Source of the DNA: Acidobacteriota bacterium
GTDB taxonomy: Bacteria > Acidobacteriota > Holophagae > Holophagales > Holophagaceae
Direction: 5' to 3'
Assembly: GCA_016213735.1 (NCBI GenBank)
Contig: JACQZU010000014.1
Coordinates: forward strand, 1-64,000
Length of the DNA stretch: 64,000 nt
In this document: piece after piece, positions 1-36,485 of the stretch
How positions within the stretch are numbered: position 1 is the first letter of the stretch
Layout: each line of letters begins with the position of its first letter
Made by a program: the position numbers and the translations under genes
Notes under the pieces: generated by a model
The model's database searches: none
What the model saw: only the letters and a program-made list of their open reading frames with translations
Told to the model about the DNA's origin: nothing

Positions 1-232
1 TCCCGGCGAAGCCGGGAGATGAAAAGGGCCGGACCCGGAAGGGAATCCCTCTCTCTCCGCCACTGAGGGGCCGCCAAGGGCGGCCCTGAAGGTTTTTGCA
101 GAGAGAGAGGGATTCGAATCGGCAATGGCGGCCCGGTAGCACCAGGCGAGGACGCACCGCGTCCGAGCCGGTCCCCGCAGGGGAGGTGCGGGGCCAGCCA
201 GTGCCGCGGCCTGGAGGGTCCGCGCCGGAACC
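1..232. repeat. tRNA-Ser-linked hairpin repeat, unit A
   Basis: This is the first of two tandem copies; bases 1-112 recur almost unchanged from 233 (offset 232). The unit holds a tRNA-Ser 3'-end-like piece (44-62), a terminator-like hairpin with a T run (68-97), then an inverted copy of the same tRNA end. The arms 44-57 and 101-114 are perfect 14-bp inverted repeats. Further on is a 6-bp hairpin with the three-base loop ACC (150-164) that is conserved in unit B. No D-arm or anticodon arm is present, so it is not a tRNA gene. The same order of parts follows the real tRNA-Ser at 36039. The left edge may be cut by the window. Confidence 0.75.
68..97 (+). terminator. terminator-like hairpin inside repeat unit A
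   Basis: An 8-bp GC stem (68-75 with 79-86, loop AAG) is followed after a few bases by TTTTT. It sits directly after a tRNA-Ser 3'-end-like piece, just as the terminator at 36133 follows the real tRNA-Ser. It may be a relic of a tRNA terminator copied with the repeat. Confidence 0.5.
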
Positions 233-480
233 TCCCGGCGAAGCCGGGAGATGAAAAGGGCCGGACCCGGAAGGGAATCCCTCTCTCTCCGCCAGTGAGG
301 GGGCGCCAAGGGCGGCCCTGAAGGTTTTTGCGGAGAGAGGGGTTCGAAACCCGGATGGCGCGCCGGCTGACGAAGGCCCGTCCTGGGCCATCGCCCTGCG
401 GGCCGCCTGCGAGGCAGTCGGTCCTATTCGCCAATCCTGGCGAAGGGTGAGAAAGCCGAGGACGCACCGCGTCCGAGGCG
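233..480. repeat. tRNA-Ser-linked hairpin repeat, unit B
   Basis: Second tandem copy of the repeat. It begins with the same sequence as unit A, including the tRNA-end-like piece and the terminator-like segment, then an inverted tRNA-end remnant near 330-345. A chain of short hairpins follows: 375-389 (loop TCC), 393-403 (loop TGC), 407-417 (loop GAG), 427-444 (7-bp stem) and 460-474 (loop ACC). The string GGCTGAC with nearby GGCC palindromes also occurs in the element at 36 kb. It runs into the 5' flank of the relA/spoT gene, so that gene's leader may contain part of it. No protein-coding signal is seen here. Confidence 0.7.
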
Positions 481-644
481 GTCACCGCCAGGAGAGGCCC
501 GGGCGCAGGGCGCCGGGCGGCGAGGAGGGGCCGGGCCCGACCCCCCCGGAACCGCCGGAAAGCCCGGGAAACCGGAGACGAGGGGAGCCCTCCGGAAAGG
601 TGCCGGCGCTGGCACGGGTCCCCCACCTGTCCCAAACTCTTTTC

Positions 645-2871: not shown

Positions 2872-3516
2872 GTGTGGCGTCCGCCCGCCAATGGCCCCGC
2901 CGTGCCCTGGGCCGCCGTGGAGGCCAGCCTCCGGGCTCCCCAGCGGGGCCCCAACCCCCACAAGTTGAGCCCCCGCATTCCCGAATCCACGCGGCGGGCG
3001 GCGGTGGCCGTCGTGCTCTGGGGGGATGGGGCCGGTGCGCGGAAGCTGGTCCTGGTCCAGCGGGGCCACGGCGCCCCGCGGCACGCCGGTGAATTGGCCT
3101 TTCCCGGGGGCATGGTGGAACCCGAGGACCGGGACCTCCCTCACACCGCCCGCCGCGAACTTGAGGAAGAGCTGGGCCTTCGGGAAGGGCTGTGGGAGCT
3201 GGGCTGCTACCCGGACGGCGTCGCCAAGGCCCTCACCCGCTTCACCCCGGTGTTGTTCCGGTGGGAGGTGCCCCATCCCGTCTTCCACCCGAACGAGGAG
3301 ATTCACGACGTCCTCCTACTCCCCCTGGAGCCCCTGATCCGGGCCCCCTGGACCACGGAAGTCCTGGAGCGGAACGGGTTGAGTCTCGTCCTGCCCCGCC
3401 TGGAACTGCCGGAGGCACCCCTTTGGGGCGCCACCGCCTACGTCCTGAAGGCCTGGCTGGACGGACTCGCCGGAGAGCTGGTCAGGGCTTCGCGCAAGGA
3501 TGACCGCCCCGGTTGA
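2872..3516 (+). CDS. CoA pyrophosphatase, Nudix family (NudL-like)
   Basis: Predicted to hydrolyse CoA and its derivatives to 3',5'-ADP and phosphopantetheine. It carries the UPF0035-type motif (LVLVQRGHGAPRHAGELAF, then PGG) leading into a Nudix box at about residues 80-103, with the metal-binding REL-EEELGL core. This arrangement is specific to CoA-type Nudix enzymes. GTG 2872 lies one base after the upstream stop; TTG 2854, inside rel, is an alternative in-frame start. The protein is about 214 residues, normal for the family. The spacing suggests translational coupling with rel, although no functional link is established. Confidence 0.88.
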   Translation: MWRPPANGPAVPWAAVEASLRAPQRGPNPHKLSPRIPESTRRAAVAVVLWGDGAGARKLVLVQRGHGAPRHAGELAFPGGMVEPEDRDLPHTARRELEEELGLREGLWELGCYPDGVAKALTRFTPVLFRWEVPHPVFHPNEEIHDVLLLPLEPLIRAPWTTEVLERNGLSLVLPRLELPEAPLWGATAYVLKAWLDGLAGELVRASRKDDRPG

Positions 3517-3578
3517 GAGGGAAGGATCCGGCCCGGGGGGTGCGAGCTCACCCGATCTTCGTCGGGGGGGGTCGGCCC

Positions 3579-4169
3579 TCAGGCCGGCTGGCCCGCCTTG
3601 AGGAGGGTCGAGATCGACTTGAAGGAGGGATGATCCTTGTCGCGGGCCCACTCGAAAGCCACGGATTCGTGGTTCGTCATCACTGCGCCCGCCGCGGCCA
3701 TCCGCTCCAGGGCGTGACGCCGGTATTCCTCCCCCCGGCCGCTGACGGCGTCCCAGCAAACATGGACCTGCTCGCCCCCCCGGAGAAGCTCCAGGACGGT
3801 CTGCATCACGCAGACGTGGGCCTCGATTCCGGCCACCACCACCTGCCGGCGGCCGGGCGGGAGGCCCGGCCGGGCGTCGGAGAGCAGGGCGGCGAAGCCC
3901 GGGTCTCCGCAGCAACCGAAGGCCACCTTCTCCAGGAAGAACTTCCGCGTGGCCAGGGCGTCGTAGGCTGAGCGGATCCCCGGATGGGTGGGGCCGATGC
4001 CTTTGGGGTACTGCTCCGTGAGCAGCACCGGGACCGAGAAAAGGTCCGCCAGCCGGAGGAGCCTCGTGGTGCTCTCCAGCACCATGGCGGGCCGATGGAC
4101 CATCTCCACCAGTTTCCCCTGGAGGTCGATGACCAGGAGGATGCTTCGCCGGGGATCAAGGATGGACAT
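3579..4169 (-). CDS. isochorismatase-family cysteine hydrolase
   Basis: A soluble hydrolase of 196 residues with the isochorismatase/nicotinamidase fold. The expected catalytic triad is visible: Asp15 (LLVIDLQ), Lys81 (FLEKVAF) and Cys120 (IEAHVCVMQT). It most resembles YcaC-type members, whose substrates are usually unknown. The frame is open further upstream to 4832, but ATG 4169 gives the normal family length, and the extension overlaps the gene on the other strand. It is convergent with the CoA pyrophosphatase and divergent from the DUF4287 gene. Substrate cannot be assigned from sequence. Confidence 0.87.
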   Translation of the reverse strand: MSILDPRRSILLVIDLQGKLVEMVHRPAMVLESTTRLLRLADLFSVPVLLTEQYPKGIGPTHPGIRSAYDALATRKFFLEKVAFGCCGDPGFAALLSDARPGLPPGRRQVVVAGIEAHVCVMQTVLELLRGGEQVHVCWDAVSGRGEEYRRHALERMAAAGAVMTNHESVAFEWARDKDHPSFKSISTLLKAGQPA

Positions 4170-4286
4170 GGCCGATTCCAGGGGAAAGGGCGGGGGCCCG
4201 CCCAGGGCCAGGATACCCCCGGGGGTCCCTCCGGGGGGGCCGTGCCTCCCGCCTTCAGCCCTAAACTGGGCGGGCGAGGAGGCCCC

Positions 4287-36038: not shown

Positions 36039-36123
36039 GGAGAGGTGGGAGAGGGGGCGATCGCGCCCGACTCGAAATCTGGAGACGGGCAACCGTTCGG
36101 GGGTTCGAATCCCTCCCTCTCCG
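36039..36123 (+). tRNA. tRNA-Ser (anticodon CGA)
   Basis: An 85-base class II tRNA. Acceptor arms GGAGAGG (36039-36045) and CCTCTCC (36116-36122) pair perfectly, with discriminator G at 36123. The anticodon loop reads CTCGAAA, a long variable arm follows, and the T-arm loop is TTCGAAT (36104-36110). It reads codon UCG. CCA is not encoded directly after the discriminator. The anticodon stem appears to hold one C-U mismatch. A terminator follows at 36133. Confidence 0.92.
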
Positions 36124-36485
36124 CGCCAAAAGGCCCCGCGAATGCGGGGCTGATTTTTGCCCCGGAGAGGGAGGAATTCGAAGTCACAGAATGGCTGGCA
36201 GGCTGACTCGGCCCTCCGGGCCTCGGGGCTTCGCCCCGGCCATCGCCTGAGGCGATGCCGTCCTATCCGCCTGCGGCGGATGGTGCCGCCCGCGTAGGCA
36301 GTCCAGTGGACTGCCGGTGCGGAGGAAGCGGCGTGCCAGCCATCCGTGCGGCCTGGAGGGTCCCCGCCAGATCGTCCACGGCGCAGCCGTGGACATGCAT
36401 GGGCTGGACCCGGAAGGGAATCCCGGGGAACGGTGCCGAGGCGATGAAAAGCGGGAACGGGGCCTTTTGGCGCGGAGTGGGAGGG
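36111..36485. repeat. tRNA-Ser 3'-end-bounded inverted-repeat element with hairpin array
   Basis: A 375-base unit whose ends, 36111-36135 and 36461-36485, are inverted repeats matching at 24 of 25 positions. The left end is the tRNA 3' end plus its flank. Inside is a second inverted tRNA-end copy (36163-36182, 19/20). A perfect 10-bp stem (36191-36200 with 36334-36343) encloses hairpins with three-base loops at 36210-36222, 36224-36238, 36242-36256, 36265-36281 and 36298-36314. Another lies at 36374-36394. Parts recur at 1-480. No believable protein is encoded between the tRNA and 36508. Confidence 0.75.
36133..36158 (+). terminator. terminator after tRNA-Ser
   Basis: A 7-bp stem GCCCCGC/GCGGGGC with loop GAAT is followed by TGATTTTT, nine bases after the tRNA discriminator base. 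It is a good intrinsic terminator. Confidence 0.85.

Follow-up and report, generated by a model that had tools for sequence, protein, structure and literature searches.

A non-coding, strand-polar repeat family tethered to tRNA genes in the Holophagaceae

Behind a tRNA-Ser(CGA) gene of an Acidobacteriota bacterium of the family Holophagaceae (assembly GCA_016213735.1; genome of 3.59 Mb), inverted copies of the tRNA 3′ end enclose a row of hairpins with three-base loops. Is this arrangement a mobile element, a structured RNA or a product of chance? We analyzed it within the first 64,000 nucleotides of contig JACQZU010000014.1 (positions 1 to 64,000, here called the window), in the rest of the same genome (G000, with contigs C3, C8, C24 and others) and in relatives (other G numbers; individual loci carry L numbers).

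A composite copy behind tRNA-Ser(CGA)

The following features were assigned in the window.

36039-36124, plus strand: tRNA-Ser(CGA), the host tRNA (ARAGORN and Rfam)
36133-36158, plus strand: terminator hairpin GCCCCGC-GAAT-GCGGGGC with T-run, in the middle of the tRNA-end palindrome (read from the sequence)
36163-36182, plus strand: antisense arm, a copy of the T-loop/acceptor 3′ end of tRNA-Ser(CGA), with this tRNA ranked first among 42
36191-36200, plus strand: 5′ strand of core stem P1, ATGGCTGGCA, pairing perfectly with 36334-36343 and co-varying in relatives
36203-36285, minus strand: a set of four hairpins (CTGACTCGG...GTCCTATCCGCC...GGATGGTG) inside the core, termed module B
36286-36333, plus strand: remainder of the core, including an 8-bp hairpin at 36297-36315
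36334-36343, plus strand: 3′ strand of core stem P1, TGCCAGCCAT
36344-36415, plus strand: Ser-type linker, GGCCTGGAGGGTCC...hairpin 36374-36394...GGACCCGGAA
36416-36424, plus strand: loop-deleted T-arm mini-hairpin GGG-AAT-CCC, the start of a direct repeat whose remainder is missing in the Ser(CGA) copy
36458-36485, plus strand: second antisense copy of the tRNA 3′ end with part of the terminator (right end; 96% over 28 nt)
1-512, plus strand: tandem array of tRNA-Ser(GCT), with core matches at 121-205 (88 bits) and 429-512 (26 bits, module B nested)

Direct reading bore out all coordinates that a first-pass annotation had given for five hairpins within a 10-bp stem and for a 9-bp hairpin further on, each with a three-base loop: 36210 (5 bp, TCC), 36224 (6 bp, TTC), 36242 (6-7 bp, TGA), 36265 (7 bp, TGC), 36297/36298 (8 bp, AGT) and 36374-36394 (9 bp, GCA). 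The stem itself (P1) is as perfect as had been claimed. Two inverted tRNA-end repeats, previously described as 24/25 (36111-36135 with 36461-36485) and 19/20 (36104-36123 with 36163-36182), are contained in 28-nt repeats at 96% (36111-36138 with 36458-36485) and 89% (36104-36131 with 36155-36182), respectively. The 401-nt region folds at -241 kcal/mol, compared with -199 ± 6.9 kcal/mol in dinucleotide shuffles (z = -6.1), and its minus strand reaches z = -8.2 against shuffles. By this fold energy, and by related copies with compensatory changes (see below), the structure exceeds chance. The host gene has the lowest Rfam score among 41 tRNAs (35.5 bits), and its end, CTCTCCGCGCCA, carries two additional bases ahead of CCA; the gene has possibly been altered or is weakening.

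The row of hairpins is real but does not form a single unit. Module B lies inside the core of the Ser(CGA) copy and of others, placed between GG and the core remainder and often in the unit that ends an array. It also occurs alone, abutting the CCA of tRNA-Met, tRNA-Leu(UAG) and tRNA-Leu(CAG) in the same genome (L014, L020 and L023), with a second, partial copy further on. GNA loops of module B (six copies) were counted at 8/11 on the strand opposite to that of the core's loops and at 0 on the plus strand. Because of this opposite polarity, we take module B to be an independent, inverted insertion, i.e., a separate hairpin repeat. Since it is nested in the tRNA-tethered core, the row seen behind tRNA-Ser(CGA) is a composite of two modules.

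A family that re-encodes the end of its host tRNA

The order of parts, counted from the tRNA, is the tRNA with CCA, a terminator hairpin with T-run, an antisense copy of the acceptor and T-arm, "ATC" followed by the core, and a linker; a second copy of that tRNA's T-arm, acceptor, CCA and terminator then follows, succeeded by the antisense arm and by the first part of the core, in many cases as far as ...GGATGGCGCG. Units thus have the organization D-M-D, with a direct repeat D of ∼120 bp, and can be repeated in tandem. Tandem spacing is mostly ∼156 to 310 bp; in closed genomes we found identical units of 196 bp at tRNA-Pro (G004) and of 171 bp at tRNA-Gln (G022), each with three cores. The T-arm of the downstream repeat is often reduced to a mini-hairpin (GGGAATCCC instead of GGGTTCGAATCCC). 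The linker of the Ser(CGA) copy is common to the Ser(GCT) and Glu(UUC) copies and partly to Ser(GGA). The first-pass annotation had regarded the element as bounded by tRNA ends that serve as terminal repeats. Inverted tRNA ends are indeed present, but there is no fixed terminal repeat: the ends are re-made for each host tRNA, and the true direct repeat runs from the T-loop through the terminator and the antisense arm to ...GGATGGCGCG.

The core comprises ∼87 nt and 33 pairs, arranged as an outer stem P1, an unpaired G-G-T-A opposite one G, a stem P2 and two hairpins, one of them on a short stem. Conserved letters are G[GA]TAG and GCAGCCAG, and GTAG is found at the foot of P2 in 70 of 94 distinct copies (74%). 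No plausible gene within the units and no promoter for the element were seen in the sequences read, and the terminator is positioned between tRNA and element. The elements form a family that is non-coding, strand-polar and tethered to tRNA genes.

A covariance model of the core (R1) yielded 14 to 18 copies in the genome of origin, 18 of them at the cut-off of E ≤ 1. Of its 42 tRNA/tmRNA genes, at least 16 carry an element or a solo D, often in tandem copies, and most matches of the region within this genome adjoin a different tRNA or tmRNA gene. The copies that had been suspected at positions 1 to 480 are genuine and belong to the tRNA-Ser(GCT) array, whose tRNA gene sits at the end of another contig, C24. 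Such arrays explain assembly breaks, with at least four contig ends of this genome lying inside them; the start of the window pairs with the end of C24 (tRNA-Ser GCT), and the start of C3 with the end of C8 (tRNA-Ser GGA).

A search of related genomes with a covariance model had been proposed beforehand, and it recovered copies in 13 of 41 close genomes (12 of 40 relatives), all of the same family. In a sample of 297 Acidobacteriota genomes, R1 detected the core in 17, every one of them in Holophagaceae, and in none outside this family. A degenerate DNA pattern run over public genomes was too weak for GC-rich DNA, and 5 of its 80 matches fitted the covariance model; four of these lie in records named Acidobacteria, and the best (90 bits) lies in "Holophagaceae bacterium bog_363" (L181), the sole strong match in a record whose title states the family. 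Two pattern matches in a viral collection were not confirmed by the covariance model.

For 85 of 102 core matches, the same strand carries a tRNA or tmRNA gene no more than 1 kb upstream. Among the remaining 17, nearly all adjoin the 3′ half of a tRNA or the edge of a contig, the exceptions being L083 and L098. Elements also stand behind apparently broken tRNAs, namely, a Thr 3′ half (L080) and a Glu gene with a disrupted 5′ part (L197). Of 77 distinct antisense arms, 66 scored higher against their own tRNA than against those of other amino acids (means, 15.4 for the own tRNA versus 7.0 for others), across ∼20 tRNA types and tmRNA; the exceptions include decayed copies and copies with nested module B, which shifts the scored window. 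The arm often ends before CCA. It also tracks changes of its own tRNA: where tRNA-Cys changed from GATTCC to GACTCC, the arm changed from GGAATC to GGAGTC (L219). A pairing of the D copy with the antisense arm that would enclose the core was considered and then rejected, since in L246 and L013, whose two tRNA copies differ, the arm follows the sequence of the tRNA gene itself.

Covariation and the strand that folds

We aligned the core from nine simple copies and wrote the structure onto this alignment, A2, which was not fitted to the model. In A2, 96.2% of cells pair and 19 of the 33 pairs have changed on both sides; 0 of 500 shuffles came near these values, and slid structures paired at 35 to 42%. 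A larger alignment of 94 distinct copies was fitted to R1 and hence is biased towards the modeled structure; it pairs in 94.8% of cells, with double changes in 32 of 33 pairs (reached by 0 of 500 shuffles; slid controls, 28 to 45%). Compensatory changes also occur in situ: at the orthologous tRNA-Cys site, both sides of a long hairpin change together (GTCGGAGACGCCAC/GTGGCGTCTCCGAC, GCCGGGGGCGCCAC/GTGGCGTTCCCGGC and ACCAGGGGCGCCAC/GTGGCGTCCCTGGT). The multi-branched structure that had been proposed, along with a test of its stems for compensatory changes, is thus accompanied by very strong covariation; an absence of related copies and of covariation had been named among the grounds for discarding the proposal, and both exist.

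GNA triloops in distinct cores were counted at 55/112 on the plus (tRNA-sense) strand and at 0 on the minus strand, and the closing pairs of core triloops are almost all C-G. In DNA, C(GNA)G loops have exceptional stability, and three-base GNA loops are typical of DNA mini-hairpins. The share of G-U among standard pairs was 2.3% in the core versus 7.9% in the tRNA stems of the same loci; ratios of G-U to A-C were 65:34 in the core, 43:2 in the tRNAs and 69:20 in the pairing between arm and tRNA. From these features, we read the folding molecule as the tRNA-sense strand in single-stranded form, more likely DNA than RNA. Covariation alone does not prove an RNA, because template switching can also yield compensatory changes without selection on RNA (PMC8794818). 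Perfect stems have been suggested, from reconstructed sequence histories, to arise and be maintained through template switching (PMC8794818).

Probable spread between tRNA genes and relation to known systems

Orthologous sites in one genus (coded g4) were found in empty, solo-repeat, full, tandem and collapsed states. The tRNA-Cys site is full in L212 to L214, L218 and L219, holds a solo or decayed D in L221 and L222, is truncated in L237 and is empty in L230, L231 and L233. The tRNA-Leu(CAA) site is full in L242, L243 and L245, has module B nested in L249, is collapsed in L250 and L251, retains remnants in L248 and L252 to L255 and is empty in others, including L256 and L258 to L264. Genomes of this genus also contain many occurrences of another GC-rich repeat (GGGGGTTCCGCGCT...CACCCCCGGGCCCCCGCGC), e.g., in L203 on the minus strand upstream of tRNA-Leu(CAA).

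Between the Cys and Leu(CAA) copies of G214, core and linker share ∼0.8 to 0.9 identity and the acceptor/terminator parts ∼0.55 to 0.7; the His and Met copies of G000 likewise have conserved core and linker and lower identity in the acceptor/terminator parts. The tree of cores rests on few columns and has many weak forks, so that only starred clades were used: the His, Ala and Met copies of G000, three Ser copies of G009, and Leu(CAA) nested within Cys copies. Such clustering across tRNA types within a genome, together with the paired alignments, strongly implies spread between tRNA genes with exchange of the tRNA parts. None of the sister-genome pairs sampled captures a single new insertion together with its donor. 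The idea of a small non-autonomous mobile element, raised in the first-pass annotation, fits the copies behind many tRNAs, the filled, empty and solo sites and the cross-tRNA core clades within one genome.

We therefore favor, with a probability of about 0.5, a REP-like hairpin repeat, non-autonomous, whose spread between tRNAs proceeds by template switching during replication and whose arms are copied anew from each target. We hypothesize that this copy-and-paste spread within a genome would begin with a nascent strand that stalls at the terminator hairpin of a tRNA, folds back on itself and synthesizes a reverse copy of the tRNA end. On reaching the T-loop sequence common to all tRNAs (TTCGA-like), the strand would switch onto an existing element, copy core and linker and then switch back at the T-loop of the new tRNA. 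The old core would thereby become flanked by an antisense arm and a direct repeat that are both specific to the new tRNA, and the ∼120-bp direct repeat, once present, could expand to arrays or collapse to a solo repeat by recombination or slippage. That both junctions lie at the T-loop is suggested by a few pairwise comparisons. Against template switching speaks the excess of G-U over A-C, pronounced in arm-tRNA pairing (69 versus 20) and modest in the core (65 versus 34), which would also fit selection on RNA. The conserved G[GA]TAG and GCAGCCAG suggest a protein or RNA partner, which pure template switching does not require.

The main rival is that the element functions as a structured RNA. 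In this view, transcription from the tRNA promoter would run on into a trailer RNA, and the antisense arm of this trailer would pair with the tRNA 3′ half; the pairing might, for example, keep read-through transcripts from maturing or sequester the tRNA, while the core would serve as a protein-binding scaffold. Such a transcribed trailer would account for the constant tRNA-sense polarity, for arms that follow changes of the tRNA (as in tRNA-Cys, L219), for the G-U excess in arm-tRNA pairing and for the in situ compensatory changes at the tRNA-Cys site. However, presence at a given tRNA is erratic between sister genomes, even to complete absence, a terminator separates tRNA and element with no promoter seen, G-U is far rarer than in tRNA stems and the GNA triloops are of the kind typical of DNA; we consider this reading unlikely, if still a serious contender. 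Less probable again is a REP/REPIN-like element that once depended on a RAYT (TnpA-REP) transposase acting in trans, a gene which the genome has meanwhile lost. Short-looped hairpins, extragenic position, clusters and the GTAG at the P2 foot agree with it, GTAG being the hallmark of GTAG REPs (PMC3733652). Nevertheless, Y1_Tnp is absent from G000 and from the element-bearing relatives G004, G006, G009, G012 and G015, and the Y1 genes examined in G002, G005 and G010 have neither an adjoining core nor a convincing GTAG hairpin. Judged by sequence, the Y1 genes of bearing relatives are presumably IS200-like TnpA, and we know of no REPs with an antisense copy of a host tRNA.

Site-specific recombination could act either on attC-like sites through the resident integron integrase or through a tyrosine recombinase at the tRNA T-loop. 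T-loops are classical integrase targets, the solo repeat and the full copy resemble attB and attL/attR, and G000 encodes four tyrosine recombinases (two Xer-like, one apparently phage-type from weak matches and one integron integrase). We nevertheless hold this to be improbable, as a new antisense arm for each tRNA is not made by recombination and the core consensus lacks GTTRRRY/RYYYAAC boxes. The chromosomal integron (L317; G000:C3:28000-33914) has its integrase (TIGR02249, 454 bits) at 3197-4201 on the minus strand, two AT-richer cassette-like genes and two canonical 125-nt attC sites of the GCCTAAC...GTTAGGC type, and its array runs off the contig end; we rejected the element as an attC of this integron, the integrase being real but its attCs ordinary and the core without R″/R′ sites (RYYYAAC, GTTRRRY). 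Very little weight falls on a tRNA-primed retroelement, in which the antisense arm would be the primer-binding site and the direct repeat the LTR. The antisense tRNA 3′ end, the long direct repeats and the solo copies resemble such elements, but the arm often stops short of CCA, and the RVT_1 reverse transcriptase is absent from G000 and most bearing relatives. In two closed genomes, RVT_1 reverse transcriptases are present as near-identical full-length copies, 7 in G014:C1 and 10 in G022:C1, which may represent multicopy group II introns.

The element might, as we tentatively propose at somewhat less than even odds, represent a categorically new, "target-copying" type of mobile element, in which the structured core would hop only between tRNA genes with the universal T-loop as landing homology, and the antisense and sense flanks would be newly written from the tRNA 3′ end at each jump. 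These tiny, tRNA-tethered and presumably spreading repeats appear to be undescribed. The full-text literature searched, a scope outside which subscription papers and preprints lay, yielded no description of the element, and Rfam, at gathering and permissive thresholds, returned tRNA only, plus matches far below the gathering score, and no such family. We know of no described repeat that writes a section of its host tRNA in antisense wherever it occurs; this one does so at a large share of a genome's tRNA genes and across a bacterial family. The repeat lends itself as a natural test case for three questions: how small structured repeats manage to spread without a transposase, whether compensatory hairpin evolution can result from template switching instead of RNA selection, and why integration hot spots lie at tRNA 3′ ends.

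Among known systems, GTAG REPs, BIMEs and REPINs are likewise short-looped, GTAG-footed, extragenic, clustered and non-coding palindromes (PMC3733652, PMC3116915). The element differs in its position 3′ of tRNA/tmRNA genes, its antisense and direct copies of the tRNA end, its multi-branched 87-nt core and a genome without RAYT. REPs and REPINs are defined by a GTAG/CGTC tag at the palindrome foot, which the element has as GTAG, and by a RAYT flanked by repeats, which G000 lacks; they are scattered in high copy, whereas the 14 to 18 core copies here nearly all lie 3′ of tRNA/tmRNA genes. With integron attC sites the element shares strand-polar hairpins, tandem arrays and an integron integrase in the genome, but it has no R′/R″ boxes and no cassettes and is tethered to tRNAs, the true attCs lying on contig C3. 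Like MITEs, it is small, non-coding, repeated and equipped with inverted repeats; MITEs, however, have constant terminal inverted repeats and a short target-site duplication, while the arms here are host-tRNA sequence, site-specific and combined with a ∼120-bp direct repeat, and no parent transposon for the element was found. Template-switch or quasipalindrome mutation also makes and perfects inverted repeats in a single event (PMC8794818), but it is known as a mutation process and not as the spread of a conserved element between tRNA genes. Islands and phages that integrate at tRNA genes, finally, are flanked by direct repeats of the tRNA 3′ end in the same manner, whereas this element, at ∼200 bp and without integrase or cargo, adds an antisense copy of the tRNA end and occupies many tRNAs per genome.
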